From: Elusimicrobiota bacterium
GTDB taxonomy: Bacteria > Elusimicrobiota > Elusimicrobia > JACQJP01
Direction: 5' to 3'
DNA length: 46,200 nt
Assembly (NCBI GenBank): GCA_016204975.1
Contig: JACQJP010000036.1
Span: forward strand, 1-46,200
The notes beneath the pieces were generated by a model that was not told the origin of the DNA, did not search any database, and saw nothing but the letters and a program-made list of their open reading frames with translations. The position numbers and the translations under genes are program-made. Positions 5,872 through 36,901 of the stretch are shown here, piece by piece (within the stretch, counting starts at the first letter, position 1; each line of letters begins with the position of its first letter).

Positions 5872-6944
5872 CGACTCTCCCGCCGATTATACAATTTTTT
5901 CCCAGCACGCTGGCGCCCTCTGGGCGCCCGGCTGGTGCCCGAAGCCCTGCGAAGGGTGCGAGGAACTCCCGCCAAAAGGGACAAAACCGCCATCCGGACG
6001 TACAGCCCGTTTTCTACCTGCCGCCAGATGGCGGAATGCGGCCCTTCCACGACCGGCGAATCCAGCTCTACCCCACGGTGGACCGGCCCCGGGTGCAAAA
6101 TCACCGCCCCGGGACGGGCCCAGCGCTGAATCCGTGCCTCCGTTAAGCCATACTCTCGAGCATACTGTGAGGCAGAGGGATAGCGCGTTCCCGAATGCCG
6201 CTCCCTTTGAACCCTAAGGACATAGATGACATCCGCCTCCCGCAAACCCTGCTGGATATCCGAAACCGCAGGGACCCGAAGCTCCTCCACCACCTCCGGG
6301 GTCAAAAAGGCACGTGGGCCGCAGAGGGTCACCTGCACCCCCAAGCTCTTCAGACCCGCCACCAAAGACCGGGCCACCCGGGAATGCAGAATATCCCCGA
6401 TCAAGGTCACCCGGAGCTTTCCCCAGGGCTTTCCCTGCTCGGCAATGGTCATCAAATCCAACAGGGCCTGGGTCGGGTGCTCCCCGATGCCATCTCCTCC
6501 ATTGACCAGAGAGGCCCGCACTTGAGGAGCCAAAGGCGCCAGAACCCCCCGGTCCGAGGTGCGCAAGATAATCCAGTCCACCCCCAGGGCATCCAGGATG
6601 CGCACCGTATCCTCCAAGGACTCCCCCTTCTGCATGCTGGACTCCCCTTGCGCCAACTGGATGACTTTGGCGCCCAGGCGCTGCGCCGCCAAGGCAAAGG
6701 AAAGCCGCGTCCGGGTGGAAGGCTCGTAAAAGAGAAGCGCCGCCGCCTTTTCAGAAAAGTGGGCCACCCCCGCTCGGTCCTTTAAAAACCATCGGCGCTT
6801 GTGTGTTGCGGCCAGATCCAGAATGCACAGAATCTCCTCCGGGGTCAGCTCCCGGATTCCCAAAAGGTCCTTCCGAGTCCAGATAAAATTTTTCGGCTTG
6901 CGATTTCCAGCACCCTTCTGTTGCACGGCCATTTTCTTCCTCAT
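5862..6944 (-). CDS. pyrB: Aspartate carbamoyltransferase catalytic subunit with repeat-derived tail
   Basis: PyrB condenses aspartate with carbamoyl phosphate in pyrimidine synthesis. Residues 73-80 carry YEPSTRTR for carbamoyl phosphate; further on are SSMQKGES, GEHPTQALLDL and HPGPVHRGVELDSP, all diagnostic of ATCase rather than OTCase. The start ATG overlaps the purE stop (ATGA). The family core ends near LYVRMAVLSLLAG. The last 34 residues are Arg-rich and not family-like; about 329-347 are encoded by a 57-bp dispersed repeat. The TAG lies inside the tRNA-Thr gene, giving a 10-bp overlap. No pyrI or pyrC is present. Confidence 0.93.
   Translation of the reverse strand: MRKKMAVQQKGAGNRKPKNFIWTRKDLLGIRELTPEEILCILDLAATHKRRWFLKDRAGVAHFSEKAAALLFYEPSTRTRLSFALAAQRLGAKVIQLAQGESSMQKGESLEDTVRILDALGVDWIILRTSDRGVLAPLAPQVRASLVNGGDGIGEHPTQALLDLMTIAEQGKPWGKLRVTLIGDILHSRVARSLVAGLKSLGVQVTLCGPRAFLTPEVVEELRVPAVSDIQQGLREADVIYVLRVQRERHSGTRYPSASQYAREYGLTEARIQRWARPGAVILHPGPVHRGVELDSPVVEGPHSAIWRQVENGLYVRMAVLSLLAGVPRTLRRASGTSRAPRGRQRAGKKLYNRRESRPT
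5886..5891 (-). promoter_or_regulatory. -10 box (TATAAT) for the tRNA-Thr-tuf operon
   Basis: A perfect TATAAT lies 14 bases upstream of the mature tRNA-Thr 5' end, just downstream of an A-rich run. This position suits a start site about 8 bases before the tRNA. No good -35 is visible at 17 bp; that position falls in the 57-bp repeat. The box lies inside the pyrB coding tail. Confidence 0.55.
5904..5960 (-). repeat. 57-bp palindromic dispersed repeat, copy in pyrB tail
   Basis: On the minus strand it begins CGCACCCTTCGCAGGGCTTC and ends CCAGCGTGCT. It includes the perfect 7-bp hairpin GGCGCCC-AGA-GGGCGCC. Three other copies lie at 19435, 33793 and 36839. This one is read in the same frame (TLR-ASGT-RAPRG-QRA) as the mnmA copy. 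Confidence 0.85.
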
Positions 6945-7402
6945 CGGGCCTGGGGTCTTAAAGCCCGCAGCCTGCGCCGAAAAACCGGGTACTTGAGCGC
7001 CAGGATCTCCAAAGCCAAAACCGCCGCATTCTTCGCCCCAGCCGACCCCACCGCCATCGTGGCCACCGGCACCCCCGAAGGCATCTGTAGAATCGAAAGG
7101 ACGGAATCCAGGCCCCGAAAGAGCTTCGTCCGCATAGGAACTCCAAGGACGGGCCTTAAGGTCAAAGAGGCCACGACCCCAGGCAGATGCGCCGCCCCTC
7201 CGGCCCCGGCGATATAGATCTCACCCCCGGCACGCTCCGACGCCCTTAGAATGCGGCGCAGGGTCCGGGGGGTCCGGTGGGCGGAGGCGACCACCATGCG
7301 GTGTGCAACCCCCCACGTCTTTAGGGAATCCGCAGCCGGCTGAAGCGCTGCGCGATCCGACTCCGAGCCCATCAGAATCCACACTAAAACCTTTTTCTTC
7401 AT
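6941..7402 (-). CDS. purE: N5-carboxyaminoimidazole ribonucleotide mutase (class I PurE)
   Basis: PurE moves CO2 onto the imidazole ring in purine synthesis. The 153 residues show GSESD near the N terminus, SAHRTP, the AGAGGAAHLPGVVAS loop, GVPMRT and QMPSGVPVATMAVG. This looks like class I, which normally needs PurK to make N5-CAIR; no purK lies in this window. The gene follows purD after one base and overlaps pyrB by 4 bp. Confidence 0.95.
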   Translation of the reverse strand: MKKKVLVWILMGSESDRAALQPAADSLKTWGVAHRMVVASAHRTPRTLRRILRASERAGGEIYIAGAGGAAHLPGVVASLTLRPVLGVPMRTKLFRGLDSVLSILQMPSGVPVATMAVGSAGAKNAAVLALEILALKYPVFRRRLRALRPQAR

Positions 7403-7403
7403 T

Positions 7404-8738
7404 CTAAACTCCTATATTTTTGCGTGGCTCAGTAAGATCGGATACTTGAAGAAGTCCCATGGGAAAAGCGGCAGAACCGATATCCCTCCGATATTGCATC
7501 CCCTCAAAATGAATCCCGGAGATGGTATCATAAGCCTTTCGGCAAGCCTCCTCCAAGTTCGGGGCCTTCCCCACAACCGATAGGACCCTTCCCCCGGCCG
7601 TCCGCCATCTCTTCTCATCCCGCTCCACGGCAGAATGGAAAAGAAAAACTCCGGGAGACCATTGCTCCTGAAGCCCCATGATCTCCCGCCCCTTCCGCAC
7701 AGAGCCTGGATAGCCTTCGCTGGCCAGCACCACGCAGCAGGAAGCCGCCGCAGGCTCCACCGCCTCCGGCATCAGGGAGAGGCGCCCGGTCAAAACCGCC
7801 TCGATCCACTCCGCCAAGTCCTGTTCCCAGACCGACAAAAGCGCCTGAGTTTCCGGATCCCCAAAGCGGACATTAAACTCCAACACAAAGGGCTCTTTCC
7901 CTTTCCATAAAATCCCAAAATAGATCAGACCGCGATATTCCAAAGATTCTTCCTCAAGCCCTTTGAGATAGGGCCGAAAAACCTTCTCCTCCAACTTCTC
8001 CCAAAGCTCTTGAGATACCTCTGCCGGCACTGCGGTCCCCATACCCCCGGTGTTTGGTCCCCGATCGCCCTCCTGCAAGCGCTTATAGTCCTGTGCTGCG
8101 GGCAACGCCCGAAGACTTTTCCCATCGCAAAAAGCCAAGACCGAAGCCTCCCAGCCCTGCAAAAATTCCTCCACGACCACCCTCGCCCCGGAGGGGCCCA
8201 GGCACCTAAGGACCAAAAGCTGCTGCAAAACCTCCTGAGCGGCCTCCAGACTCTCGCAGAGGAAGACCCCCTTCCCGGAGGCCAGGCCCTCCGCCTTGAG
8301 GACCACCCGGGAGTGGCCCTGCTTCAGGAGCCGGCGCACATAGGCGAGCGCAAGCTCTTTTTCCTCAAAGACCTCAAACTCCGCGGTGGGAATCCCGTAC
8401 TTTCTCATGAAATGCTTGGCATAAACCTTGCTGGACTCCAGCCTCGCCGCCTTCCTTTTAGGCCCAAACACCGGAATCTTTTGTGCCGCCAGGGCATCCC
8501 CAATACCTTTCGCCAAAGGAGCCTCCGGCCCCACCAACACCCAATCGATTTTCCTGGAACGCACCAGGTCCGCGTAGGAGTCCCAATCTCCCCGGGCACA
8601 TTCCGGCAGGCAGGTCGCGGAGCCCGCCATGCCCGCATTGCCGGGAGCGCAAAAGATTTTGGAGACGCGCCGGCTAAGCCCCAGCTTCCAGACGAGGGCA
8701 TGCTCCCTTCCTCCGGAGCCAATGACTAGGACGCGCAT
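7404..8738 (-). CDS. purD: Phosphoribosylamine-glycine ligase
   Basis: PurD ligates glycine to phosphoribosylamine with ATP (GAR synthetase). The 444-residue protein has the N-terminal GSGGREHAL motif, GPEAPLAKG, the ATP-grasp region with VLKAEGLASGKGV, the PurD signature RGPNTGGMGT and the metal-binding EFNVRFGDPE. Its start overlaps the end of purF by 13 bp, so translation is coupled. Length is normal for the family, with a short C-terminal extension. Confidence 0.96.
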   Translation of the reverse strand: MRVLVIGSGGREHALVWKLGLSRRVSKIFCAPGNAGMAGSATCLPECARGDWDSYADLVRSRKIDWVLVGPEAPLAKGIGDALAAQKIPVFGPKRKAARLESSKVYAKHFMRKYGIPTAEFEVFEEKELALAYVRRLLKQGHSRVVLKAEGLASGKGVFLCESLEAAQEVLQQLLVLRCLGPSGARVVVEEFLQGWEASVLAFCDGKSLRALPAAQDYKRLQEGDRGPNTGGMGTAVPAEVSQELWEKLEEKVFRPYLKGLEEESLEYRGLIYFGILWKGKEPFVLEFNVRFGDPETQALLSVWEQDLAEWIEAVLTGRLSLMPEAVEPAAASCCVVLASEGYPGSVRKGREIMGLQEQWSPGVFLFHSAVERDEKRWRTAGGRVLSVVGKAPNLEEACRKAYDTISGIHFEGMQYRRDIGSAAFPMGLLQVSDLTEPRKNIGV

Positions 8739-10123
8739 AGCTTCGCGCTCCGTGAGGCGTCCAGCTGGGAACGGATCCTTTCTCCATCCTCACGATACTG
8801 ACCCGTAAAACAAGCGGTGCAAAAATCCTCAGGGGTTTTCCCCGTCGCCCTGAGCATCCCTTCCACCGACAGGAAGGCCAAACTTTCTACTCCCAAAAAC
8901 TTCCGAATCTCCTCCACGGACAGGCGCGAGGCCACCAGCTCCTTTTGCGTGGGGGTGTCAATGCCGTAGAAACAGGGATGGGTAATGGGAGGCGAACCAA
9001 TGCGCAAATGAACCTCTCGGGCCCCCGCGTCATAAATCAGGCGCACCAGCTTTCGACAAGTGGTTCCGCGAACAATAGAATCATCCACCAGCACCACCCG
9101 TCTTGCGCAAACCGCCTCCCGAACCACGGCATACTTGAGCTTGGCTCCAAAATCGCGGATGGACTGGCGTGGCTCGATGAAGGTCCGTCCCACATAGTGA
9201 CTGCGGATCAGCGCCATGGCAAAAGGAATACCGGATTCCTCCGCAAACCCCTCCGCATGCACCACCGCCGAATCGGGAACGGGAATGACCCGATCCGCCC
9301 TGACCGGAGCCTCCCGGGCCAGCTCCCGGCCCATCTGGCGCCGCACCTGGTAGACGCTGGCCTCCCCCGCCCGGCTGGAAGGTTTGGCAAAGTAGACCAA
9401 CTCGAACACGCAAAAACTCCTTCGCACCGCCTCCTCCAAATAACTGGAGGAAAGGCCCCCGGAGTCCAATCGCAAGATTTCGCCCGGAGCCACATCCCGC
9501 AGGTACTGAGCGCCGATCAAGTCAAAGGCACAGGTTTCCGAGGCCACCAGATAGGACTCGCCGTATGAGCCCAGGCAAAGCGGGCGAAAGCCCTTGGGAT
9601 CGCGAACCGCCATCAGAGCTTGAGGAGTCGCCACAACCAGGCTATAGGCCCCACGGACGGCCGCCAAAACGCGGCGCAGGGCTCCCGAAAGATCCCCTCT
9701 CTCCAGGCTCAAGGCCCGCAGGATGACCTCGGTATCAGAGGAGGAGGTGAAGCGAACCCCGCGCCTTTGGAGACGCCTCTTAAGCTCTCCGGAGTTGGTC
9801 AGGTTGCCATTGTGCGCCAAAGCCATCTTCCCCCAAAAGCTCTGGGCAACCAGGGGCTGGGCGTTGCGCACCCCTCCCCGGCCGGCGGTTGCATACCGCA
9901 CATGGCCGATGGCCAAATGGCCGGACAAGGCCGAGAGCTTGCGACGATCGAAAACCGAAGAGACCAATCCCAACCCCACCCGCCGACAAAAACCATGACT
10001 GCCCCAGGAAGCGATCCCCGCCGCCTCTTGTCCGCGATGCTGAAGGGCATGCAGACCCAGTGTGGCCAGGCGAGAGGCCTCTGGATGGTTAAAAATGCCG
10101 AAAACCCCGCATTCCTCCTTCAC
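8726..10123 (-). CDS. purF: Amidophosphoribosyltransferase, Fe-S type
   Basis: PurF makes phosphoribosylamine from PRPP and glutamine, the first committed purine step. The chosen GTG start at 10123 overlaps the purQ stop (GTGA) and gives 465 residues. A four-residue propeptide (VKEE) precedes the nucleophile Cys5 of CGVFGIF. The glutaminase domain has HALQHRGQE and NGNLTN; the PRPP site is VVLVDDSIVRGTT. Cysteines equivalent to the B. subtilis [4Fe-4S] ligands are visible in SFCVFE, HPCFYGID and FCTACF, so the oxygen-sensitive Fe-S form with propeptide processing is likely. Confidence 0.95.
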   Translation of the reverse strand: MKEECGVFGIFNHPEASRLATLGLHALQHRGQEAAGIASWGSHGFCRRVGLGLVSSVFDRRKLSALSGHLAIGHVRYATAGRGGVRNAQPLVAQSFWGKMALAHNGNLTNSGELKRRLQRRGVRFTSSSDTEVILRALSLERGDLSGALRRVLAAVRGAYSLVVATPQALMAVRDPKGFRPLCLGSYGESYLVASETCAFDLIGAQYLRDVAPGEILRLDSGGLSSSYLEEAVRRSFCVFELVYFAKPSSRAGEASVYQVRRQMGRELAREAPVRADRVIPVPDSAVVHAEGFAEESGIPFAMALIRSHYVGRTFIEPRQSIRDFGAKLKYAVVREAVCARRVVLVDDSIVRGTTCRKLVRLIYDAGAREVHLRIGSPPITHPCFYGIDTPTQKELVASRLSVEEIRKFLGVESLAFLSVEGMLRATGKTPEDFCTACFTGQYREDGERIRSQLDASRSAKLCAS

Positions 10124-10872
10124 CCCTTTACCCCCTTTGCATAATCCACGGCCCCTTTCCAAAAAAGGCGCCCGGTGACCCGAACCTTTTGGGAAGTCCA
10201 AGCCGGATGCTGCACGGGCCAGAGAAATCGTTCCGGATGAGGCATCAGACCCAGCACATTGCCCCGAGGGTTGCAAAGCCCCGCCACACGCCCCTCTGAG
10301 CCGTTAGGATTTTCTCCGGCATACCGAAACGGAACCTGGCCTCGGCGAGACAGATCCCTCCAGAAGGAGCGGGACTTGCCCAAAAAACGCCCCTCGGCAT
10401 GCGCCACAGGCCACTCCAAATCCCCAGGCACCCCTTTGAGCCACGCGGCGCGCGAGGCGAACTTGCGCAGCGGCACCCAACGGCACATAAACCTACCGGA
10501 ATTGTTCCAGGTCAGGGTCGCCTCCGGGCAAAAAAGGCCGCCCCCCCCCGGCAGAAGTCCCAACCGCACCAGCACCTGAAACCCGTTGCAGATTCCGATC
10601 ACCAGCTTCCCGGACTGCACGAATTCCTCAAGCGCTCCCCGCAGATGCCAGAGGAGCTTATTCGCCAATATCTTTCCGGAGGCGACATCATCCCCATAGG
10701 AAAACCCCCCCGGCAAAACCAAAATAGAAAAGTCCCGCAGCTCCACTCTCCGCTCCAGAAGATCTCCCATCTGACCCAGGCAAACCTCAGCTCCCGCCAG
10801 AGACAAAGCCTCTGCCGTCTCCCGATCGCAGTTGGTCCCGGGGGCCTTCAAAACCAAGGCATGCGCCTTCAT
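10120..10872 (-). CDS. purQ: Phosphoribosylformylglycinamidine synthase subunit PurQ
   Basis: PurQ is the glutaminase subunit feeding ammonia to PurL. The 250-residue protein starts at ATG 10872, overlapping the upstream kinase gene by 4 bp. It shows the class I amidotransferase pattern: APGTNCDRET at the N terminus, LPGGFSYGDDV, the nucleophile elbow GICNGFQVL, and the late His/Glu in MPHPER. PurS-like and PurL subunits are encoded upstream in the same operon. Confidence 0.94.
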   Translation of the reverse strand: MKAHALVLKAPGTNCDRETAEALSLAGAEVCLGQMGDLLERRVELRDFSILVLPGGFSYGDDVASGKILANKLLWHLRGALEEFVQSGKLVIGICNGFQVLVRLGLLPGGGGLFCPEATLTWNNSGRFMCRWVPLRKFASRAAWLKGVPGDLEWPVAHAEGRFLGKSRSFWRDLSRRGQVPFRYAGENPNGSEGRVAGLCNPRGNVLGLMPHPERFLWPVQHPAWTSQKVRVTGRLFWKGAVDYAKGVKG

Positions 10873-12713
10873 TTTTTTGCCCTTTCCCAACGCAATATCT
10901 TCTGCCACCAACTTCTTTGTGGAGGCAGCCCCTCCAAAAAACGCGCCGAACCCGCAACGGCCGAGGCCACCGGCAACGTGAAACGAAAAACCGAACCTTT
11001 CCCCTCCGCACTCTCCACCCACATCTGGCCCTTGTGCAGATGCACCAGCGCCTTGGCGATGGAGAGCCCCAGACCGGTCCCCTCCGCGGCCTTTTCCCCC
11101 ACCAACAGTTGCACAAATTTATCAAAGATGCGCTGCTGATCCTTTGCGGGAATCCCCCGGCCGGTATCCTCCACCGAAAATACCACGCAACCGGGGAAAG
11201 AGGGGTTCACACCGGCCCTCAGACTCACCCGACCTCCCCGGGGGGTAAATTTCAAGGCATTGGAAATTAGATTAGAAAAAACCTGATGAATTCTCCCGGA
11301 ATCCGCCAAAACCTGAGGCAGCCCGGACTCAGGTTCCAGATGGAGAGCGATGTGGGCCGACTTGGCCCAGTAGGCAAAGTCTTCCGCCGCCTCCCTTAGT
11401 AAAAGCTCCGGAGCGGCGGGAACCGGATGGGCCGTCATCCGCCCGGCTTGAATCTTTGAAAAATCCAGAATATCCCGGATCAGAGACATCAAGCGCTGGA
11501 CATTCTTTGAGGCGATCTGCAACACCCTCTTGTGCTCGGGGCTCCAGGAGCCTGCGGACTCCCCCAAGAGCTCCAAAGAGGTGGAGATCGAGGTCAGGGG
11601 GTTGCGCAGCTCATGAGTGACGCTGGCCACAAACTCCCGCTGCATCCTTTCCAGCTCCCGATACTTGGTCAAGTCGCTTAAGACGGAGACCATCCCCACC
11701 ACCTTTCCCTCCTGGTTTTTGATGGTGGCGGTAGAGGCCCGCAGCGTCCGACAGACTCCCTCTTCACCACGCAGCTCCACCTCCCTCACCCCGGCTCCGG
11801 ATTCAGGCCCTCCCAGCTCCCTGGCCATAGCCAGGATCTGCGCCCGGCGGTCCTGCTCGCCTAAGGGCTTCCCGGCCATCTCCGAAAGTCGCCCTCCATA
11901 AAGCTTCTCCGCAGCATCGTTCATCATCATCACCTGGCCCTGAGCATCCACCACCACCACCCCTTCCGCCAAACTGGACAGAACCCCCGAGGTACGCTCC
12001 TGCTCAAATTTCAGGGTCTTTTTTTCCCGCTCCAGGGTCTCCGTGGCCTCCCGGATCCGCCGCTCCAAATCCTTTTGGCAGCGATCCAAGACATACTCCA
12101 AAAACCGGCTCTGCTCCTGCGGGTCTTGGACCGCTTTCTGAACCAGCTCCCGGAGGGCTTGCTCCCAGGAAACCATCTCCACGTCTTTATTAGGATCGGG
12201 TCCTTTATTAAGATCGGGTCCCTCCGTAGATGGGGAGGGGGGGGCTGGGGAGGGTGGAATCTGCGCGGGGGCAGCAGGAGGCTCTCGGTCCACCTTGGCG
12301 TATACTGAGAAGTTGACCTGAACCCCCTTCAAACCCCTGGTTTTCAACCACTCCTGCGCGCTACCGCCTCGAAGGCTCTCCGGCTTGGCGGACAAAAACT
12401 CATAAAAAAGCTTCCACTCCTGCCGCTGGATATGGGGCAGAAACACGACGCTGCGCAGATTCATCCGGCGAAACAGGACGGTAAAGGGCGCCGGAAACTG
12501 CTGCAGGTTTCCGATGACCACGCCGTTTAAAAGCAGCTTCTCCCCATCCACCGAGAAGGAACACTCCCCCTGCTCCCGAACCAGGTCGCGACACAGATCC
12601 CAAGACTCCTCGATGGATTTCTCAACGGAGGGATGGTCCATCCGGTAAAGCACCATCTGTCCGGCCGTCTTGCCGATGGAACGGATCAAGCGCAGGACCT
12701 TTTGAGTCTCCAT
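10869..12713 (-). CDS. Soluble PAS-domain sensor histidine kinase inside the pur operon
   Basis: The ATG at 12713 shares a base with the purL stop (TGATG) and the gene ends in an ATGA overlap with purQ, giving 614 residues. No membrane segment is visible. Residues 1-170 form an unrecognised domain (RMDHPSVEKSIEE, FSVDGEKLLLNG). A Pro-rich linker and a coiled coil follow, then a PAS-like domain (SSLAEGVVVVDAQGQVMMMN). The kinase core has the H-box VTHELRNPLTS, N-box SNLISNALKFTP, VEDTGRGIP and GTGLGLSIAK. No response regulator or output domain is nearby. A role in sensing purine or growth state is inference from the location only. Confidence 0.88.
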   Translation of the reverse strand: METQKVLRLIRSIGKTAGQMVLYRMDHPSVEKSIEESWDLCRDLVREQGECSFSVDGEKLLLNGVVIGNLQQFPAPFTVLFRRMNLRSVVFLPHIQRQEWKLFYEFLSAKPESLRGGSAQEWLKTRGLKGVQVNFSVYAKVDREPPAAPAQIPPSPAPPSPSTEGPDLNKGPDPNKDVEMVSWEQALRELVQKAVQDPQEQSRFLEYVLDRCQKDLERRIREATETLEREKKTLKFEQERTSGVLSSLAEGVVVVDAQGQVMMMNDAAEKLYGGRLSEMAGKPLGEQDRRAQILAMARELGGPESGAGVREVELRGEEGVCRTLRASTATIKNQEGKVVGMVSVLSDLTKYRELERMQREFVASVTHELRNPLTSISTSLELLGESAGSWSPEHKRVLQIASKNVQRLMSLIRDILDFSKIQAGRMTAHPVPAAPELLLREAAEDFAYWAKSAHIALHLEPESGLPQVLADSGRIHQVFSNLISNALKFTPRGGRVSLRAGVNPSFPGCVVFSVEDTGRGIPAKDQQRIFDKFVQLLVGEKAAEGTGLGLSIAKALVHLHKGQMWVESAEGKGSVFRFTLPVASAVAGSARFLEGLPPQRSWWQKILRWERAKK

Positions 12714-16433: not shown

Positions 16434-16489
16434 CTGCCGTTCGAGAGTAGGGTACCAAAAAAACTTCCTCTATAAAAGTGAGCGCGGCG

Positions 16490-16533
16490 CAACCGGGCGA
16501 GCGAGTCCCCAATTCCATTTTGCAAAAGTCCAG
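16490..16533. mobile_element. Isolated right end of the CTGGACTTTTGCAAA MITE-like family
   Basis: This 44-bp segment contains TCCATTTTGCAAAAGTCCAG preceded by GAGTCCCCAAT. It matches the right terminal repeat of the full elements at 21701 and 30778. No left end is present, so this is a remnant or solo end. It lies in the purC-transporter intergenic region, and one longer reading frame runs through it. Confidence 0.7.
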
Positions 16534-16558
16534 TGAAAAAGCTAGCCTATCGCGCCTC

Positions 16559-19349: not shown

Positions 19350-19808
19350 ATGACCAGGTGGCTTGTAACGGGGGCTCTTTTAGGGGGACTGTGGGGGCCG
19401 CTCCAGGCAGAGTCTCTCGAGGAAAATCTCTGGCAGCACCCTCCGCAGAGCTCCGGGTACGGCGGCCCGCCAGAGGCGGGACAACTCCGCCAGGAAATCC
19501 AGAGCCGCGAAGACTCCTGGGCCTCCCACCCTTTCTGGAAATTTATGCAGAAAGCGGCGGTCGTCTCCCACAAGGGCCTGCGCACAAAAGATCTGAATTA
19601 TTTTCTGCCGATCCTCTCCAACCTCCTTCATCTTCCTGAAGTCCCTCACACTCCGTGGAGCCAGGAACAGACCTCTCCCCGGCTCTCTTCCGCCCCCTCT
19701 TTTCTTCCCCTCTCCTGGCACCTAAAGGCCAGGATCTCCGCCCAAAACCCCAAGATGAGTCTCCAAATGAAGCTCGCCTTCGGCGGCCCAAAAGAAGCTC
19801 ATAACTAA
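19350..19808 (+). CDS. Hypothetical small exported protein
   Basis: The 152-residue frame begins with a plausible signal peptide (MTRWLVTGALLGGLWGPLQA, cleavage before ES). The rest is polar with no domain I recognise; it has KDLNYFLPILSNLLHLPEVP and a Ser/Pro-rich middle. Residues about 29-47 come from a copy of the 57-bp repeat that keeps the frame. The ribosome-binding site is weak. It lies between a terminator and the FNR-like regulator. A real gene is likely but not certain, since GC-rich sequence makes chance frames. Confidence 0.5.
   Translation: MTRWLVTGALLGGLWGPLQAESLEENLWQHPPQSSGYGGPPEAGQLRQEIQSREDSWASHPFWKFMQKAAVVSHKGLRTKDLNYFLPILSNLLHLPEVPHTPWSQEQTSPRLSSAPSFLPLSWHLKARISAQNPKMSLQMKLAFGGPKEAHN
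19435..19491 (+). repeat. 57-bp dispersed repeat, copy in the exported-protein gene
   Basis: It starts AGCACCCTCCGCAGAGCTCC, continues GGGTACGGCGG, and contains the hairpin CCCGCC-AGA-GGCGGG. The left half matches the copy at 33793 closely. The right half matches the half-copy at 33767-33792. Confidence 0.75.
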
Positions 19809-21700: not shown

Positions 21701-21936
21701 TAGACTTTTGCAAACTTATAGAGAAGGGGGTGGCCGGGGGATTGCCTGGAGAAAACCGTGTTTTGTCCGGCATCCTGCATGCAGCCGGACAAAATGCCGG
21801 AGGCCGGGCCCCAAAAGCGTGTTGAGCCGGCACTCCCCGACCGTAGTCGGGTCCCGCAGCGAGCCTCGCAAATGGCGAGCGTTTTTCGAAAGGCAACCCC
21901 CGGACAAAACCCCGATTCCATTTTGCAAAAGTCCAG
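21701..21936. mobile_element. MITE-like element with about 50-bp imperfect terminal inverted repeats
   Basis: The left end reads TAGACTTTTGCAAACTTATA and the right end, reversed, CTGGACTTTTGCAAAATGG. Similarity continues inward through GGGG...TTGCC for about 50 bp. The interior has further hairpins (TTTTGTCCGGCAT/ATGCCGG-like, CGACCGTAGTCGGG) but no coding frame with family features. It fills the upp-wecB gap, and its right end abuts the upp stop codon. A target duplication is not evident. Confidence 0.75.
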
Positions 21937-22557
21937 TTAAGTTCCGAAAAAGCGGTCTCCGGCATCCCCCAGCCCCGGAATGATAAAGCCCCGCGCATTG
22001 AGATAGGGATCGACCGCAGCCACATAGACCGCAATGCCGGGATGCTGCCGATGGAAGCGCCGCAGTCCCTGACGGGAGGCGATGAGGGAAACTGCCGAAA
22101 TTTTTCCGGCCCCGCGACTTTTCAAAATGGCGGCCGCCTGGGCCATGGAGCCTCCCGTGGCCAGCATCGGATCCAACAAAAAGACCGGGGCCCCCTTGAG
22201 CGGCGCGGGGAGATTCACGTAGTAGCGCACCGGGACCAAGCTCTTCTCGTCCCGGTAGAGCCCGATATGCCCCACGGAAGCGTCCGGAACCAGGTCCAGC
22301 ATCCCATCCAGAAAGGCAAGACCTGCGCGCAGAACGGCCACAAAACAGGGAGGGGGGGATTGCAAAAACGGAGCGGAGAGAGGCCTCAAAGGGGTGCGAA
22401 TCCTGCGAGGCCGGGTCTCCAAGCCTCGCAGAGCCTCCAAGCCCAAGGCCCAGGAAGCGCGGCGGATCGCCTTGCGAAAATTTTCCATGGAGGTCTTCCG
22501 GTCCCTCAGGACGCTTAAGGCATGGCGCAGAATCGGATGCGAGCAGACGCGAATCAC
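21937..22557 (-). CDS. upp: Uracil phosphoribosyltransferase
   Basis: Upp makes UMP from uracil and PRPP. The 206-residue product has the PRPP-binding motif FLLDPMLATGGSM, VAVLRAGLAFLDGML, HIGLYRDEKSLVPVRYYVNLP and the uracil-site ending PGLGDAGDRFFGT. It starts at GTG 22557 overlapping the pdp stop (GTGA), so phosphorolysis and base reuse are co-expressed. The stop is directly followed by the MITE-like element. Confidence 0.95.
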   Translation of the reverse strand: MIRVCSHPILRHALSVLRDRKTSMENFRKAIRRASWALGLEALRGLETRPRRIRTPLRPLSAPFLQSPPPCFVAVLRAGLAFLDGMLDLVPDASVGHIGLYRDEKSLVPVRYYVNLPAPLKGAPVFLLDPMLATGGSMAQAAAILKSRGAGKISAVSLIASRQGLRRFHRQHPGIAVYVAAVDPYLNARGFIIPGLGDAGDRFFGT

Positions 22558-25750: not shown

Positions 25751-26018
25751 AGGGTCCGTGAAGAAATTACTGGCACATTTGGAGGCCCAGATTTGAGACG
25801 GATGCAAGGCGCGACGACGAAGCGTACCCGAAGGTACGTTGAGGAGAAGCAACGCAGCAGCCGGCCGAAGATGGGCCTCCCCGAAGGGCCAAGGCACTTT
25901 GGGGCTGCGACTGCGTTACTCGTCGCTCACATAGCCTCCAGCTATGCCACGCTCCTCATGCCTTGTCTCGCTCCCAAATTGACTTGGCAAATATGTCATT
26001 AATTTCTTCACGGACCCT
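25751..26018. mobile_element. 268-bp near-palindromic element between rplS and rnhB
   Basis: The ends are a perfect 19-bp inverted repeat, AGGGTCCGTGAAGAAATTA. Imperfect complementarity continues inward for about 100 bp per arm (GCAAGGCGCGACGACGAAGC facing GCTTGTCTCG-type sequence). Each arm carries a small hairpin (GTACCCGAAGGTAC; CATAGCCTCCAGCTATG). It has no coding frame with family features, so it fits a non-autonomous transposon or a large cruciform repeat. Its first two bases on the minus strand complete the rplS stop codon. Confidence 0.8.
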
Positions 26019-30224: not shown

Positions 30225-30237
30225 AAATCCTCTGCCC

Positions 30238-30750
30238 TCAACCCCATTCTCGCTTAAGTTTTCGAATCAAACGCTTGACCTTCAGACGTGAAAAAAGCGG
30301 CAGATGATCGATAAAAAGCTTCCCGTTTAAATGATCCAGCTCATGCTGAAAGGCCCGGGCCAAAAGCCCTTCCCCGGCCCACTCCACGGGCAACCCTTTC
30401 TCATTCACCGCCCGCACCACTACCCGGGCCGCCCGATGGATTGGGGCATAAAGGCCCGGAATGGAGAGGCACCCCTCCTCCTCCTGTTGGAACCCTTGCT
30501 TGGAGACGATCACCGGATTGATCAACACCACCCTCCGGGATTCCCCCTGGGGTTTCACATCGATGACCGCCAACCGCAGCGCAAGGCCGATCTGCGGAGC
30601 CGCCAACCCCACCCCGCGGGCCGCCTCCATGGTGGCCCACATGTCCTTGAGGAGGGACTGAAGTTGCGGGCCGTGATTTTTCCAGTCAAAATCTCGAGCC
30701 TTTTGACGCAAAACCGGCTCGCCATATTTCGTGACGCGCAGCACAGACAT
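30238..30750 (-). CDS. def: Peptide deformylase
   Basis: Def removes the N-formyl group from new proteins. The 170 residues contain all three metalloprotease motifs: GVGLAAPQIG, EEGCLSIPG (with the Cys metal ligand) and QHELDHLNGKLFID (two His ligands and the catalytic Glu). It leads the long minus-strand operon. A TACAAT -10-like box is at 30766-30771; any -35 would fall in the end of the MITE at 30778. Confidence 0.96.
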   Translation of the reverse strand: MSVLRVTKYGEPVLRQKARDFDWKNHGPQLQSLLKDMWATMEAARGVGLAAPQIGLALRLAVIDVKPQGESRRVVLINPVIVSKQGFQQEEEGCLSIPGLYAPIHRAARVVVRAVNEKGLPVEWAGEGLLARAFQHELDHLNGKLFIDHLPLFSRLKVKRLIRKLKREWG

Positions 30751-30777
30751 GGTTCAATCTAAAAAATTGTAACATAT

Positions 30778-30995
30778 CTGGACTTTTGCAAATTTATGGA
30801 GAAGGGGGTGGCTGGGGATTTGCCCTGCAGACCCCGTAGTGGAGTGGACTTCGCTGCAGTTTTGGCGGTCGTTCGGACACCAGCCGAAGGCTGCGTGGGA
30901 CCCTCTGGGGGAAACCGACGGGACTGGTTTCCCGGGGTTCGGGGGCTAAGGGCAAACCCCAGACAGAACCCCAGTTCCATTTTGCAAAAGTCCAG
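30778..30995. mobile_element. MITE-like element with about 50-bp imperfect terminal inverted repeats
   Basis: The left end reads CTGGACTTTTGCAAATTTAT, the right end TCCATTTTGCAAAAGTCCAG. Matching continues inward through GGGG.TTTGCCCT on both sides. The 218-bp element lies between the divergent def and glpD-like genes. It carries the first part of a longer spurious reading frame into glpD. Interior sequence includes a diverged segment (CCAGCCGAAGGCTGCGTGGG) distantly like the 57-bp repeat. Confidence 0.8.
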
Positions 30996-31011
30996 TACAG
31001 AAGGGAAGAGG

Positions 31012-32331
31012 ATGGAAAAATTCGACACCATCGTAATCGGCGGAGGCATCACCGGAGCGGCGGTAGCCAGAGACGCCGCCATGCGGGGCCTCACCACCTT
31101 GCTGATTGAAAAATCGGAGCCGGGCAGGGCTACCACCGCCTCCTCCACCCATCTTCTCCATGGGGGGCTGAGGTATCTCCTGTATGACCTAAAGACTGCC
31201 CAGGAAAGCGCCTGGGACTGTGGGCATATCCTCCGCATCGCACGCCCCCTCTTTCAGCGGCAATTTTTTCTCTGGCCCGTCTATCGCCACCATCGCCACG
31301 GCATGGAGACGGTGGAGACCCTTCTGGAGGTCTACGACCGATGGCAGGGCCTGAAAGAGGGGTTGCCCCACCGGCGTTTCAGCGTCCGCCAAGCCCTGGA
31401 GCACCTGCCCTCCCTCAAATCCCAAGGGCTCCTGGGAGCCCTCCGCTTCGACGAATGGTGGATGGATCCGGTGCGCCTGGTAGAAGAGACCCTGGCTTCC
31501 GCCCAACGATACGGGGCGAGAATCCAAACGCGAACGCAGGTCCGCAAGCTCCTGAAATCCGGAAACCTCATCGAGGGCGTGGAAACAGAGTCCGCCATAG
31601 GCCCCCAACGCTTCGGTTGCCGAATCCTTCTCAATACCACCGGACCCTGGACCCAAGAGATCTGCCGGATGGCGGGGATCGCTCTGCCTATGTCCCTGAG
31701 GAAGGGAATCCACCTGGTTTATCCGGGGACCCTCACCCCCACCGCAGTCCTTCTGGAGGCCATAGACCGGAAACGCTACATCTTTGTGGTCCCCTTGAAT
31801 CAAAAAACCCTGCTGGGCCCCACCGACGATCCCTGGGAAGGCTCTCCCGATTCCCTGAAGGCCGAGCCCCATGAAATCGAATATCTGCTTCAATCGGCCC
31901 AGAGGAGCTTCCAGGACTTTCCCACACAATTTTCGAGCACCACAGCGGGGGCGCGTCCCATCCTTTTCCAACCGGCCTCCCCCAATCTTCTTTCCCGGGA
32001 CCATGCCGTCTTAGACCACGAGATTCTCCACGGGATCTCGGGACTTCTGACCCTCGCCGGGGGAAAACTTTCCACCCACCGCAAGATGGCTCAAGACGCC
32101 GTGAACCTGGCCCTGAAAAAACTGGGAAAAAACCTTCCCTGCCGGACGCACCTGGAGACCTTGGAGGGCCTGCCCCTGCCGGAATCCGAGCGGCTGAAAC
32201 GCTATGCCCATCGCTTTCCCCCAGCCACCTCTTTGCCTGGACGGATACAAACTCTCCAAAAAAGATTTCGGGCCCTTCTGGTTTTGGGAGCCTTCGCATG
32301 CCGACACTGGATGAGGCGATTGAAGATTTAA
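31012..32331 (+). CDS. glpD: GlpD-like FAD-dependent glycerol-3-phosphate dehydrogenase, short form
   Basis: The enzyme class oxidises glycerol-3-phosphate to DHAP with FAD at the membrane. From ATG 31012, preceded by AAGGGAAGAGG, the product is 439 residues. The N terminus has the FAD-binding TIVIGGGITGAAVARDAA, then STHLLHGGLRYL, LNTTGPWT, SLRKGIHLVYPG, PLNQKTLLGPTDDP, AGARPILF and LTLAGGKLSTHRKMAQDA. Only about 60 residues follow this, so most of the usual GlpD C-terminal domain is missing. It overlaps the next gene by 34 bp. A related oxidase with another substrate is possible. Confidence 0.8.
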   Translation: MEKFDTIVIGGGITGAAVARDAAMRGLTTLLIEKSEPGRATTASSTHLLHGGLRYLLYDLKTAQESAWDCGHILRIARPLFQRQFFLWPVYRHHRHGMETVETLLEVYDRWQGLKEGLPHRRFSVRQALEHLPSLKSQGLLGALRFDEWWMDPVRLVEETLASAQRYGARIQTRTQVRKLLKSGNLIEGVETESAIGPQRFGCRILLNTTGPWTQEICRMAGIALPMSLRKGIHLVYPGTLTPTAVLLEAIDRKRYIFVVPLNQKTLLGPTDDPWEGSPDSLKAEPHEIEYLLQSAQRSFQDFPTQFSSTTAGARPILFQPASPNLLSRDHAVLDHEILHGISGLLTLAGGKLSTHRKMAQDAVNLALKKLGKNLPCRTHLETLEGLPLPESERLKRYAHRFPPATSLPGRIQTLQKRFRALLVLGAFACRHWMRRLKI

Positions 32332-33794
32332 AGGCCGGCTTTCCACGGGATCGGCTGCTGCTGGATCCCGAACAAAGGCTGGCCTACGCCCAGGACCGAT
32401 GGCCCTACGCCCTCTGGTGGACGAAAGAGGAGCGCCTAAGCCGCACACCTCTGGCGGTCCTGCAACCCCTCTGCGAGGAGGAGATCGCCCGGATCCTCCC
32501 ATGGGCCAGGGCGCACTCCCTGGCGGTCCTTTTCCGGGGAGGAGGCTCGGGGGTCTGCGGAGCCGCCATCCCCCCGAAGGAGAAAAACTCGGTCATTGTG
32601 GACATGACCCGGATGAATCGGATTCTGCACCTCGATCTTGAGGAAGATCCCCCCAGCGTCACGGTGCAGTCGGGCCTGCTGGGAGGGGAATTGGAGAAGG
32701 CCCTGCAGGCGCGTGGCTACACCACAGGACATTCCCCGGCCTCTCTGCACATCTCCACGGTCGGCGGATGGATCGCCACCCGCTCCTGCGGACAGCTCTC
32801 CACCCGGTACGGAAATATCGGAGCCACCGTTTTAGAACTGAAAGTGATCGACGCGGAGGGGAAGACCCAAACCCTCTCGCAGGTGGAGGAGTGGCTGGGC
32901 AGCGAGGGAACGCTGGGAGGCATCCTGGAGGCGCGCCTGAGGATTTTTCCATGGGCGGCCCCCCGGCGGTTCCAGTCTTGGGAGTTTAAGGACCTCCCCG
33001 CCGCCCTTTCGGCCTGCCGAGCCCTGCTGGAGTCCGGGATCCTCCCCCTGGTCCTTCGGCTCTACGATCCCGCCGACCGCTTGATCCTGGGTCCTGCGCA
33101 AAAACCCGGGATCTTACCGGAGGCCTTCCATGGCATTCTCCTGCGGCACCCCACCTGGATGGACCGAGCTTTGACCTGGGGCGAAAAAAAGAGCTGGCTC
33201 AAGCCTCTGGTGCTCACGATCTTCGAGGACTCCGAGCGTTCCTTCCTCAAAGGCTCCGCGCGCGCGGAAATACTCTTCAAAACCTGGGGAGGGAAGCTTC
33301 TGGGGCCCGGGCCCGCCCGAATCTGGTGGAAGAAACGCTATGACTTGGGATTTGAGATCGTAGAAGGATATTTCCGGAGGGGCTGCTTCACGGACACCCT
33401 GGACGCCTGGGCAGAGTGGGAAAAACTGAGTTCCCTCTACCAAACGCTGAAGGCTCGGCTCCGCTCCCGGTGCCTGCTCCTGGCGCATCTGGCCCACTTT
33501 ACTCCCCAAGGGGCCTGTCTCTACCTAACCCTAGCGGGCAGCGCGGGGAGCTTTCAAAAAACCAGAGAGCTTTACCGCGAACTCTGGCGAATGGCGCTGG
33601 AGACCTGCATCGAAGGTGGTGCTAAAGTAAATCACCACCATAACATCGGGCTGGCCAAACAACCCTGGATCGAGGAGGCCGTGGACCCGGAATGGAAACG
33701 AATCTACCTCGCCAAAAAAATGGAGCGGGACCCCTCCCGGCTCTTCAACCCCGACAAACTCTTTCGCCCGCCAGAGGCGGGACGACTTCGCTAG
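32298..33794 (+). CDS. FAD-linked oxidase of the alkyl-DHAP synthase-like family
   Basis: The 498-residue flavoprotein has a PCMH-type FAD domain: VLFRGGGSGVCGAAIP, VTVQSGLLGGELEKALQARG, TTGHSPASLHISTVGGWIATRS, and YGNIGATVLELKVI. The TTGHSP/STVGGW/YGNI set, together with the late VNHHHNIG (three His), resembles alkylglycerone-phosphate synthase. That enzyme swaps the acyl group of acyl-DHAP for a fatty alcohol in ether-lipid synthesis. It overlaps the GlpD-like gene, which could supply DHAP. Many relatives are uncharacterised, so the exact reaction is inference. The last nine residues (RPPEAGRLR) come from a half-copy of the 57-bp repeat. Confidence 0.75.
   Translation: MPTLDEAIEDLKAGFPRDRLLLDPEQRLAYAQDRWPYALWWTKEERLSRTPLAVLQPLCEEEIARILPWARAHSLAVLFRGGGSGVCGAAIPPKEKNSVIVDMTRMNRILHLDLEEDPPSVTVQSGLLGGELEKALQARGYTTGHSPASLHISTVGGWIATRSCGQLSTRYGNIGATVLELKVIDAEGKTQTLSQVEEWLGSEGTLGGILEARLRIFPWAAPRRFQSWEFKDLPAALSACRALLESGILPLVLRLYDPADRLILGPAQKPGILPEAFHGILLRHPTWMDRALTWGEKKSWLKPLVLTIFEDSERSFLKGSARAEILFKTWGGKLLGPGPARIWWKKRYDLGFEIVEGYFRRGCFTDTLDAWAEWEKLSSLYQTLKARLRSRCLLLAHLAHFTPQGACLYLTLAGSAGSFQKTRELYRELWRMALETCIEGGAKVNHHHNIGLAKQPWIEEAVDPEWKRIYLAKKMERDPSRLFNPDKLFRPPEAGRLR
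33767..33792 (+). repeat. Right half of a 57-bp dispersed repeat
   Basis: CGCCCGCCAGAGGCGGGACG and the following ACTTCGCT match the right half of the copy at 19435, with the same CCCGCC-AGA-GGCGGG hairpin. It forms the C-terminal codons of the flavoprotein gene and directly precedes a full copy. Confidence 0.65.
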
Positions 33795-33849
33795 CACCCT
33801 CCGCAGAGCTTCGGGTACCAGCCGGACTCGCAGAGCTCGCCAACGTGCT
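33793..33849. repeat. 57-bp dispersed repeat filling a convergent gene gap
   Basis: It runs from AGCACCCTCCGCAGAGCTTC to GCCAACGTGCT, exactly 57 bp. Preceded by T it completes TAG (33792-33794) for the plus-strand flavoprotein gene. Read from the other side it also begins AG and completes TAG (33850-33848) for the minus-strand phosphodiesterase gene. Confidence 0.85.
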
Positions 33850-34624
33850 AGACCTTGCCTCGAAGGACGCGGCGGCCTAAAAAGATGTCGTCCGTCCAGA
33901 TCCCTTCAAACCCCCGCTCCAGAAACCACCGAAAATCCTCCGGCGTATTGGCGATGCCTCCGGTGATCGCAACCCCTTCCCGTTTTGCCGCCTCCACCTC
34001 ACGGCCGACGCGCACCCAACTCATCCACCCGAAAAACCAGGTCCTGGCCCACCGCAGATGGTTGTACCCCACGCACAAAGCTTCCGCCCCCGCGCGGCGG
34101 GCCTGCGACGCCCAGGCCACCGGAACTACCGGCATCACCGCCGTCCGGCAGCGGGGCTCCAGTTGCTTAGCCAGCCTCAGCCACCTGGCGCGGGTGGAAA
34201 AATCCAGAAGATAACAACGCGCGAGGAGATTCCCACGGCGCAGAAGCTCTAAAATCTGCTCCAACCGCTTTTTATCCAGCTCATGCAGGTCCAGATAGGC
34301 CAAGGCGGAGGGATGCTCCGCGAGAAAGCTGAAAAAATCCTCCAGATGCGGCAGGGGCTCCCGCCCAAAAACCTTCAGCTCCTTGAGCTCCCGATAGCTC
34401 TTGCGCGAGAGAAGCCCCCGCACCCCCAACAGGCGATAGGTGTCGCGGTCATGAAAAAGAACCGGCTCCCCCTCCCGGGTAAACCGCACGTCGCACTCCA
34501 GACCCGAAATCCCCTCCTGCGCGCACCCCCGGAAGGCCTTTAGGGTATTTTCCGGAAAGCATAGGGCGGCTCCGCGGTGAGCCAGAATCTGAGGACCCGA
34601 TCTTAATCCAGGAGCAGTTTCCAC
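33848..34624 (-). CDS. Glycerophosphodiester phosphodiesterase family protein
   Basis: GDPD enzymes release glycerol-3-phosphate from deacylated phospholipids. The 258 residues have ILAHRGAALCFPENTLKAF with the first catalytic His-Arg and Glu, GLECDVRFTREGEPVLFHD with metal Glu/Asp and the second catalytic His, and a late TGGIANTPEDFRWFLERGFEGIWTDDI. There is no signal peptide, so it is probably cytoplasmic. The chosen start is GTG 34624, one base after the ddl stop. The product would supply the GlpD-like enzyme encoded convergently, but co-regulation is not implied. Confidence 0.88.
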   Translation of the reverse strand: METAPGLRSGPQILAHRGAALCFPENTLKAFRGCAQEGISGLECDVRFTREGEPVLFHDRDTYRLLGVRGLLSRKSYRELKELKVFGREPLPHLEDFFSFLAEHPSALAYLDLHELDKKRLEQILELLRRGNLLARCYLLDFSTRARWLRLAKQLEPRCRTAVMPVVPVAWASQARRAGAEALCVGYNHLRWARTWFFGWMSWVRVGREVEAAKREGVAITGGIANTPEDFRWFLERGFEGIWTDDIFLGRRVLRGKV

Positions 34625-34625
34625 G

Positions 34626-35696
34626 CTAGGTCAATCTCAGGCGGGTCTTCCGGCGGTGGCGCTCTAAAGCCAGCTGAATCAGCCGATCGAGAAGCCTCGG
34701 GTAGGAGATGCCGGAAGCCTTCAGGAGTTGCGGATACATGCTGATGGCCGTAAAACCGGGGAGGGTGTTCACCTCTCCGATATATACCCTGCCGCTTCGG
34801 CGGTCCAGCAAAAAATCCACTCGGGCCATTCCCTCGCACTCCAAGGCCTGAAAGGCGCGCAGGGCCAGCTCCTGAATCTTTTGGGATTGCCTACGGGAGA
34901 GCGGCGCCGGGATGAGGCGCTGGGCTCCCCGAGGATCCAGATACTTGGCCCGGTAGCTGTAAAAGGCATGCCGCCCGGGATGGACCTGCACCTCTCCTAA
35001 GACAGAGGCCCTCAAGGGCTCCCCGCCCAAAACGGCGCACTCGATCTCCCGGGCTTGCACCGCCTTCTCCACCAATACCTTCTGGTCATATCGAAAGGCC
35101 TTCTCCAGGGCTCCGGAAAGTTCCCGAAGGGATGCGACCTTAGAGACCCCCACCGAGGAACCCAGGCGCGAGGGCTTCACAAAAAGGGAGGGTCCCAAGC
35201 GGCGAATCCGCCGGATCACCTCCCGCCTGTTCTTTTTCCACTCCGAGAGCCGCAGGCTCAGGAAGGGAGACACCTCCAGCCCGGCCAGCTTCAGCAGGCG
35301 TTTGGAAAAATCCTTGTCCATCCCCAAGGCGGAAGCGGCCACCCCGCAGCCCACATAGGGCGCGCCCAGAACCTCAAAAAATCCCTGCAGGGCTCCGTCC
35401 TCCCCCAAACTGCCGTGCAAAACCGGGAAAAAAACATCTACGGCAGGCATGGGGCGGCCCTGAAAAAACCGAACCCGAACCGCCCGAAGGCCGGCGGGAG
35501 AAAAACGGGACCCGGTCGAATTTAAAAATCCCCGGAGGTCTCGGATCCAAAACCACTCCTTCCGGCGGCTCATCCAAAAAAGGAGCGCCCGGTAGCGGCG
35601 GCGGTCCAAGTGGGCCAGAATCGCGCGGGCGGAATTCAAGGAAACCTCATGCTCCGCAGAAGGCCCGCCACACACAATCCCGATCCTAATCACCAT
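34626..35696 (-). CDS. ddl: D-alanine-D-alanine ligase
   Basis: Ddl makes the D-Ala-D-Ala dipeptide for peptidoglycan. The 356-residue ATP-grasp protein has GGPSAEHEVSLNSARAI, FPVLHGSLGEDGALQGFFE, GMDKDFSKRLL, FVKPSRLGSSVGVSKV and VYIGEVNTLPGFTAISMYPQLL. The omega-loop reads FYSYRAKYLD. The Tyr in AKY, where D-lactate ligases have Phe, favours D-Ala-D-Ala activity. It overlaps the mnmA stop by 7 bp. No adjacent mur genes. Confidence 0.95.
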   Translation of the reverse strand: MVIRIGIVCGGPSAEHEVSLNSARAILAHLDRRRYRALLFWMSRRKEWFWIRDLRGFLNSTGSRFSPAGLRAVRVRFFQGRPMPAVDVFFPVLHGSLGEDGALQGFFEVLGAPYVGCGVAASALGMDKDFSKRLLKLAGLEVSPFLSLRLSEWKKNRREVIRRIRRLGPSLFVKPSRLGSSVGVSKVASLRELSGALEKAFRYDQKVLVEKAVQAREIECAVLGGEPLRASVLGEVQVHPGRHAFYSYRAKYLDPRGAQRLIPAPLSRRQSQKIQELALRAFQALECEGMARVDFLLDRRSGRVYIGEVNTLPGFTAISMYPQLLKASGISYPRLLDRLIQLALERHRRKTRLRLT

Positions 35697-36901
35697 GACT
35701 TTTCAATGATCCCTCCTCCCAAGACCTCACTGCCGCGGTAAAAGACCGCCGACTGCCCCGGAGCGATCGCCCACTGGAAATCCTCAAACTCCACCTCCGC
35801 CTCTTCCCCACCCTCTCCAAAAACCAGAATCTGCGCCGGGGCCGGAGGATGCCGGTGCCGGACCCGCACTTGAGCGTGGAGGGATATGCCCGAGGCCAGC
35901 ACGCTGGGCCCCTCTGGGGCTCCGGCGGGTCCCCGGAGCACTGCGGAGGGGGCGGGGCCCGAAATCCAGTGCACCTCCCGCAGCCGGCAAAATCTCCGGC
36001 CTGCCTCCCGCGCCTCCGCCACCACCAGCGTGGAGCTTTCGGGATGCATCTGGGACACATAGACCGGCCTGCCCAGGGAAATCCCCAAGCCGGAGCGCTG
36101 ACCGATGGTATAGTGCATCAGTCCCCGGTGGGTTCCCAAAAACCTTCCCGAACGGTCCAGAATCGGCCCGGGGCGAAGCCCCGAGGCATCGCCCTTCCCC
36201 TGGGCGACCCGGCTGCGGACAAAACCCCGGTAGTCCCTTCGGGGAACGAAGCATATCTCCTGGCTCTCCGGCTTGGCGGCAGTCGGCAAACGGAGCTCCC
36301 GGGCCTTTTGGCGAACCTGCCGCTTGGTGAGGCCTCCGAGGGGAAAAACCACCCGATTCAAAACCTCCTGGCTCAGCATATACAGAAAGTAGCTCTGGTC
36401 CTTGCACTCATCCACCGCCCGGCGCAACCGGTGCGGATCTGCAGGAGAGCCGCCCGTTTCCACCCGCGCGTAGTGCCCGGTGGCCAAAAGTTCCGCCTGC
36501 CACGCCCGGGTCAAGCGCCACAAAACGTCGAACTTGACCGTACGGTTGCACTCCACGCAAGGATTGGGGGTCCTGCCGCTTAAGTAATGCTCCACAAAAG
36601 GGGAGACGACGCGAGACTCAAAAAGTTCCCAAAGGTCCACCGTATAATGGGGGATCCCCAGCCGCTCGCAAACCCTCGCCGCATCCTCTACGTCCTGAGG
36701 AGATCCGCAGCAGCCAAAACCGGTCTCCATCCGCTCCAGAAGCTTCAAGGTCACCCCGATGACTTCGTGACCCTCCTCCCGCATCAAAGCGGCAGCCACC
36801 GAACTGTCCACCCCTCCGCTCATGGCCACCACGACTCTGGCACGCTGGTCCCCTCTGGGGGCCCGGCCGGTACCCGAAGCTGCGCGAAGGGTGCTGGTCA
36901 C
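35690..36901 (-). CDS. mnmA: tRNA-specific 2-thiouridylase MnmA
   Basis: MnmA thiolates U34 of Lys, Glu and Gln tRNAs. From GTG 36901, which overlaps the nifS stop (GTGA), it has 403 residues. The PP-loop is VVVAMSGGVDSSVAAALM; then FGCCGSPQDVEDA, NPCVECNRTVKF with one catalytic Cys, ATGHYA, KDQSYFLYML and, further on, ESQEICFV with the second Cys. Residues about 3-21 (TSTLRAASGTGRAPRG...) are encoded by the 57-bp repeat and are not family-like. A start at an internal GTG just before VAMSGG would avoid them but shorten the first strand. Confidence 0.93.
   Translation of the reverse strand: MTSTLRAASGTGRAPRGDQRARVVVAMSGGVDSSVAAALMREEGHEVIGVTLKLLERMETGFGCCGSPQDVEDAARVCERLGIPHYTVDLWELFESRVVSPFVEHYLSGRTPNPCVECNRTVKFDVLWRLTRAWQAELLATGHYARVETGGSPADPHRLRRAVDECKDQSYFLYMLSQEVLNRVVFPLGGLTKRQVRQKARELRLPTAAKPESQEICFVPRRDYRGFVRSRVAQGKGDASGLRPGPILDRSGRFLGTHRGLMHYTIGQRSGLGISLGRPVYVSQMHPESSTLVVAEAREAGRRFCRLREVHWISGPAPSAVLRGPAGAPEGPSVLASGISLHAQVRVRHRHPPAPAQILVFGEGGEEAEVEFEDFQWAIAPGQSAVFYRGSEVLGGGIIEKSW
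36839..36895 (-). repeat. 57-bp dispersed repeat, copy at the start of mnmA
   Basis: On the minus strand it begins AGCACCCTTCGCGCAGCTTC, continues GGGTACCGGCCGG, and ends ACCAGCGTGCC. It has the same length and frame as the pyrB copy, with hairpin-forming CCCCC-AGA-GGGG in its right half. Confidence 0.85.

Follow-up and report, generated by a model that had tools for sequence, protein, structure and literature searches.

The genome of an Elusimicrobiota bacterium, a MAG of 1.497 Mb (55 contigs, 87% complete), contains about 90 copies of a short palindromic element that are flanked by a duplicated 4-bp CYRG target and lie in frame inside protein genes, exactly on stop codons or elsewhere. They are best read as a new family of MITE-like elements, i.e., miniature, non-autonomous and coding-tolerant palindromic elements, a reading to which we give a probability of roughly 0.8. 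The family resembles the Rickettsia palindromic elements (RPEs) in how it works and a very short MITE in how it is built. In-frame palindromic elements of Rickettsia, Wolbachia and one archaeon have been described as a route by which selfish DNA comes to form new protein segments, and to our knowledge, their mode of insertion is still unclear. The window, i.e., the whole stretch of 46,200 nucleotides that was analysed, is contig 12 of the MAG and contains five full-length copies and one fragment:

5902..5962, + strand: type A copy, ends CCAG...CGAG; covariance model match of 84 bits, E 1.2e-16
19433..19493, - strand: type B copy, ends CTGG...CTGC; covariance model match, E 3e-6
33767..33790, - strand: fragment similar to the 5' half of type B (CCCGCCTCTGGCGGG), directly next to the copy at 33791
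33791..33851, - strand: type A copy, CTAG at both ends, between convergent genes
35690..36901, - strand: mnmA, host gene of two copies, matching MnmA structures at E 3e-69
35896..35956, + strand: in-frame type A copy within the middle part of mnmA; covariance model match, E 6e-15
36837..36897, + strand: type A copy, ends CTGG...CTGG (CCAG in the sense of the gene), after codon 2 of mnmA

All four copies of the preliminary description (5902-5962 (+), 19433-19493 (-), 33791-33851 (-) and 36837-36897 (+)) are real; the fifth full copy, at 35896-35956 inside mnmA, had been missed. Three of the four had been placed inside reading frames, which holds for pyrB and mnmA; the copy at 19433 lies in a 152-amino-acid open reading frame (19350-19808) of unproven reality that has no Pfam match, and the copy at 33791 lies between genes. 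Nor do all four share one sequence, since the copy at 19433 belongs to another subtype with a different 5' half (CGGAGTTGTCCCGCCTCTGGCGGGCCGCC) and the 3' half of type A. The copy at 5902 keeps the frame of pyrB (5862-6944, - strand), close to the 3' end of the gene, where it is translated as PRTLRRASGTSRAPRGRQRAG at residues 328 to 348 of 360. The copies in pyrB and mnmA have the same reading frame (PRTLRRASGTSRAPRGRQRAG and TSTLRAASGTGRAPRGDQRAR), as had been described, and the copy at 35896 encodes PAPSAVLRGPAGAPEGPSVLA. The fragment at 33767..33790 was found by a pattern search with 2 matches, compared to 0.05 expected, and also as the 29-nucleotide repeat D10. Lengthened by the element, the pyrB frame ends inside a tRNA-Thr gene (5797-5871), the tRNA sequence including its TAG stop codon. 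Among the curated Rfam families, only two tRNAs matched in the window.

Copy number and structure of the element

One copy comprises 61 bp, made up of a 57-bp core with two hairpins and the 4-bp CYRG duplication, with the consensus CYRG-CACGCTGGNNNCC-TCT-GGNNNCCCGGCKGGTACCCGAAGCTCTGCGNAGGGTG-CYRG. The 57 bp given earlier as the unit length are correct as the net insertion of a type A copy, equivalent to 19 codons; the unit itself is 57 + 4 bp. With a single copy as the query, blastn found 39 places in the genome, and a covariance model (R1) built from a 37-copy alignment (A1) gave 90 matches, most of which span all 61 positions (best E, 2e-17). The 12-bp end pattern was matched 38 times, compared to once for the reversed-pattern control. 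With about 90 copies in a 1.5-Mb genome, a family limited to the copies first described can be set aside.

Several subtypes were found, with net lengths of 57 bp (type A), 60 bp (type A with a 3-bp-longer loop), 57 bp (type B, whose 5' half differs from that of type A), 105 bp (composite) and 48 bp (short). Type B had ten matches genome-wide, including the window copy. The common subtypes (48, 57, 60 and 105 bp) are all multiples of three, also outside genes; the lengths listed as frame breaking (60, 62 and 63 bp) are confined to copies outside genes. The core is free of stop codons in most frames. Tandem copies follow each other at a spacing of 57 bp and have 4 bp in common. The terminal inverted repeats are short (GCAC(G/C)CT at both ends, about 7 bp) and weaker than those of typical MITEs.

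RNA folding of the element with RNAalifold gave two hairpins. In the hairpin arms, 96.2% of the cells were paired (87% in shuffles) and double-sided changes were found in 66 cells (19 in shuffles), whereas pairing dropped to 46 to 50% when the partners were slid by one column. The hairpin arms covary strongly.

The outermost 4 bp show the pattern of a target-site duplication. Where both ends of a copy read CYRG, 26 of 35 end pairs in the MAG were identical (11.8 expected), a value not reached in any of 20,000 shuffles, and after removal of the CTAG/CTAG pairs, 11 of 20 were still identical (5.6 expected; p=0.009). The relatives gave a weaker replication, with 8 of 23 identical end pairs (4.3 expected; p=0.03). 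The variable positions 2 and 3 also matched between the ends above chance, in the MAG (p=0.0002 and 0.0012) as well as in the relatives (p<0.0002 and p=0.016). CYRG targets are CTAG, CCGG and CCAG/CTGG. A 4-bp target duplication explains both the in-frame insertions and the location on stop codons.

Copies inside genes

When 79 copies of the MAG were classed with gene calls from an ad hoc hexamer script run on the stretches around the copies, 33 fell within called genes, 21 coincided with a stop codon and 25 were located elsewhere. The view of a family inserted in frame in protein genes was therefore right but incomplete, because some copies are not intragenic, about one-quarter of those in this genome being on stop codons, and because the 4-bp duplication had been overlooked.

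Hosts with family matches include ComEC, DnaX, MnmE, COX1, Obg, AdoHcyase, cytochrome b and an SCFA transporter. The internal insert of MnmA (residues 344 to 364) is absent from all 21 aligned orthologues of the class, which disposes of the possibility that orthologues carry the same residues at this site. At the N terminus, where the copy follows codon 2, joining the flanks restores VTRVVVAMSGG, which is like the N terminus of orthologues; the GTG start of mnmA (36901-36899) overlaps the TGA stop of an upstream cysteine desulfurase-like gene. In an AlphaFold model of MnmA (20 sequences, mean pLDDT 87.8), values below 50 were found only at residues 1 to 15 and 320 to 335, i.e., the two inserts. 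In glyoxylate reductase and alcohol dehydrogenase, the insert appears as extra residues compared with solved structures, and these two inserts likewise count as absent from orthologues; in MnmE, the insert precedes the aligned part. The inserts are probably translated and tolerated in the host proteins. A ComEC-like gene (C46:12607-14610, L028) contains one element of type A and one of type B, both in frame and in opposite orientations.

The intragenic copies are biased in orientation. Among those with their first base at codon position 1 (frame 0), 27 were in the minus (APSAELRVPAGAPEGPSVLA-like) and 2 in the plus orientation (p=1.6e-6). A palindromic target can be entered in both orientations with equal likelihood. 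Non-palindromic targets as the cause of the bias were rejected, since it persisted for the frame-0 copies of the MAG with CCGG or CTAG ends (10 minus, 0 plus). The bias suggests, rather than proves, selection on the encoded peptide, that is, against the peptide of the other orientation.

Copies on stop codons

In the MAG, 15 of the copies with a CTAG at the 5' end are exactly on a stop codon, 3 are inside genes and 6 are elsewhere, and the background CTAGs number 19 on stops, 163 in coding regions and 60 in intergenic regions. Comparing stop with intergenic positions, the ratio is 15:6 for the copies and 19:60 for the background (p=1.4e-4). In two cases (33791 in the window and C5:11115), two convergent genes end on the two CTAGs of a single element, which is the outcome expected if a CTAG common to both genes had been the insertion site. 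In the window, the left CTAG is the stop of an FAD oxidase gene (32298-33794, +) and the right CTAG is that of a GDPD gene (33848-34624, -).

The genes with copies on their stop codons are full length. Compared with family models, MurF reaches 418/418 at its last residue, GlyA 404/404 and an ArsM-like protein 355/356; FAD-oxidase_C and GDPD reach positions 248/248 and 242/244 of their Pfam models, and RmlD and others stop at the model end or close to it. Gene truncation as the cause of the location was thus rejected where it could be tested, with MurF, GlyA, the ArsM-like protein, RmlD, the FAD oxidase and GDPD being complete or nearly so. In the relatives, only 4 of 64 copies were on stops, with no clear excess, and therefore, a general preference for stop codons is not claimed.

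Distribution and mobility

Matches were found in 13 of 41 genomes searched in the class. Six Elusimicrobia MAGs of three other families (G001, G010, G008, G017, G011 and G025) have 24 to 55 copies each; the families f1 (that of the MAG), f2, f3 and f9 gave strong matches and others weak ones, and no match was found in f4, f5, f8 and f10 in this search. When the genomes of 84,980 species were scanned for the exact pattern, only the Elusimicrobia MAG NC_groundwater_1499 matched, and in a sample of 295 genomes of the phylum, the element was found only in the same class (5 genomes). Plasmids and viral contigs gave no match to one short query and one exact pattern, and spread by such vehicles was rejected on these grounds.

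Mobility is directly shown by a filled and an empty site in G008 and G017, two genomes of one genus. At locus L159, an 833-amino-acid open reading frame of G008, the flanks are 94% identical to contig 145 of G017, and G008 is longer by exactly 105 bp, in frame, which we read as one unit of 48 bp and one type A copy of 57 bp. In G017, the empty genome, 4 bp are covered by both BLAST pieces. A second gene contains one unit in G008 and about 2.6 tandem units in G017 (93 bp, 31 codons). Other copies are common to both genomes and are thus inherited. A first DNA comparison of G017 with G008 was swamped by other repeat families. These two genomes contain several further multicopy repeat families of 58 to 106 bp (L142:2516-2573, L142:3265-3328, L152:2423-2528 and L155:710-773). 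Also, a subset of copies there (L141:3349, L144, L146 and L154) has CAAG/CAAC ends and a longer fixed context, GCGCCGCAGGCG-CAAGCACG...GTGCAAC-CGCAGTTGCATA, and looks as though a larger repeat had incorporated the element.

Relationship to known elements

RPEs (Ogata 2000, 2002), as described in a review, are dispersed palindromes that lie in frame in unrelated housekeeping genes and encode a peptide in unstructured parts of the protein (PMC10969869); their length is given there as about 150 bp. Similar elements are cited for Wolbachia and Methanocaldococcus jannaschii (PMC2996958). The element described here shares the features of this functional class: a repeated palindrome, in frame in unrelated genes, the insert being absent from orthologues. 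It differs from RPEs in its 57-bp length, the 4-bp CYRG duplication, the high G+C content, the occurrence in a groundwater lineage of another phylum and the several copies on stop codons. Its sequence probably also differs from those of the RPE families; its exact pattern was found in a single Elusimicrobia genome among the 84,980 species. The initial proposal of a palindromic family in frame in protein genes, parallel to the Rickettsia elements though with another sequence, is supported by the genome-wide copies, the hairpin covariation, the absence from orthologues and the filled/empty pair.

With MITEs, the element has in common that it is short, lacks a transposase of its own, has inverted ends and a target-site duplication, is dispersed and differs in presence between relatives. 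Usual MITEs have 70 to 300 bp and inverted repeats of 15 to 30 bp (PMC3733652); the Elusimicrobia element and its inverted repeats are shorter, the parent transposon was not found and the copies are unusually often in frame inside genes. PARCELs, too, are DNA palindromes that encode protein modules and spread among genes, but they build up tracts of amphipathic domains, for the most part in surface proteins (PMC2996958), whereas the Elusimicrobia inserts are mostly single and many are in metabolic and housekeeping proteins. Among the papers searched, none links "palindromic element" with Elusimicrobia. A compact family that shows its target duplications, offers both filled and empty sites within one genus and has many conserved host proteins makes the insertion mechanism, tolerance and protein-level effects testable. 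It is also a warning that proteins predicted from MAGs of bearing lineages carry insertions of 16 to 35 residues that are neither sequencing errors nor functional domains.

Mechanism and alternative explanations

We infer that a transposase-type enzyme acting in trans would insert the 57-bp core at a 4-bp CYRG target, where a 4-bp staggered cut would lead to the duplication of 4 bp. Insertion in a gene would add 19 residues in frame and leave the reading frame unbroken because 57 is 3 x 19 and the core is stop free in most frames, and insertion at a CTAG stop codon would duplicate the CTAG and so preserve the stop. Purifying selection would then keep copies on stop codons or between genes and in protein loops and termini, there mostly oriented such that the encoded peptide is Pro/Ala/Gly/Ser rich; this would account for the orientation bias. 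Two transposase families were searched, and neither Y1_Tnp nor DDE_Tnp_1 was found in the MAG (87% complete) or in G001, which speaks against DDE_Tnp_1 as a partner in these two genomes. A search for an autonomous copy through the 12-bp ends found only fragments and no transposon-like pair of isolated half-ends.

If the element were instead of the REP/REPIN type, i.e., single-stranded hairpin DNA moved by a Y1 tyrosine transposase (RAYT or IS200 type), CTAG would be the cleavage tetranucleotide and not a duplication. In having two hairpins on the same strand and a tetranucleotide at their foot, the element indeed resembles IS200/REP, and GTAG REPs are reported to supply TAG stops to flanking open reading frames and to occur inside some (PMC3733652). 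However, the ends are CYRG rather than a conserved GTAG (or CGTC) and vary jointly, which a fixed cleavage motif does not predict, the unit is a 57-bp double hairpin, Y1_Tnp was not found in the genome with the most copies (G000, the MAG) or in G001 with its 33 copies, and some genomes rich in Y1 genes are without the element. Y1 transposases are present in some other element-bearing genomes. The jointly varying ends and the absence of Y1_Tnp weaken a REP/RAYT origin, which we consider unlikely. A selected RNA or DNA structure at gene ends (terminator, mRNA stabiliser or protein-binding site), with the intragenic copies as a by-product, would fit the strong covariation and the enrichment on stop codons relative to intergenic CTAGs, but presence differs within one genus, the hairpins have no downstream U-tract and about 40% of the classed copies are inside genes, so that this is, if anything, a little less probable still. 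Since the sequences are G+C rich and come from metagenome assemblies, with several contigs that end close to a copy, assembly artefacts and convergent repeats of low complexity or high G+C content also have to be weighed; they are hardly credible in view of a specific 61-bp sequence with covariation, E values as low as 2e-17, the recurrence of the family across several independent assemblies and clean flanks of 94% identity.

The MITE-like reading leaves room for two views of how the family evolved. The frame and stop locations may simply be those of the survivors of random insertions, with no adaptation to coding; this is compatible with the MITE-like reading, and we lean slightly towards it. 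In-frame and stop-codon copies are the ones expected to survive, and the frame-breaking lengths are found only outside genes. Multiples of three also outside genes and a core that is open in most frames speak against it, but these do not prove adaptation, as G+C-rich DNA has few stops. More tentatively, and in our view with the odds somewhat against it, the element may be adapted to life in genes by its multiple-of-three net lengths, the nearly stop-free core, the orientation encoding a disordered linker and a CTAG target that regenerates the stop. If so, it could colonise a small, gene-dense genome almost free of cost and steadily add peptides to housekeeping proteins.

Other repeats in the window

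A second dispersed repeat of about 215 to 235 bp with inverted ends (GACTTTTGCAAA/TTTGCAAAAGTC) is present at 21703-21937 and 30781-30996 and also at 16486-16534. It corresponds to the families D3 and D7 and is MITE-like, with a similar stretch in L033. At 25751-26018, there is an inverted repeat with 31-nucleotide arms (AGGGTCCGTGAAGAAATTA...) that are 90% complementary and 206 nucleotides apart, perhaps another MITE. Positions 1 to 147, at the end of the contig, are a tandem 21-bp repeat, GACGCTGGACCAAAAGGTTCA.
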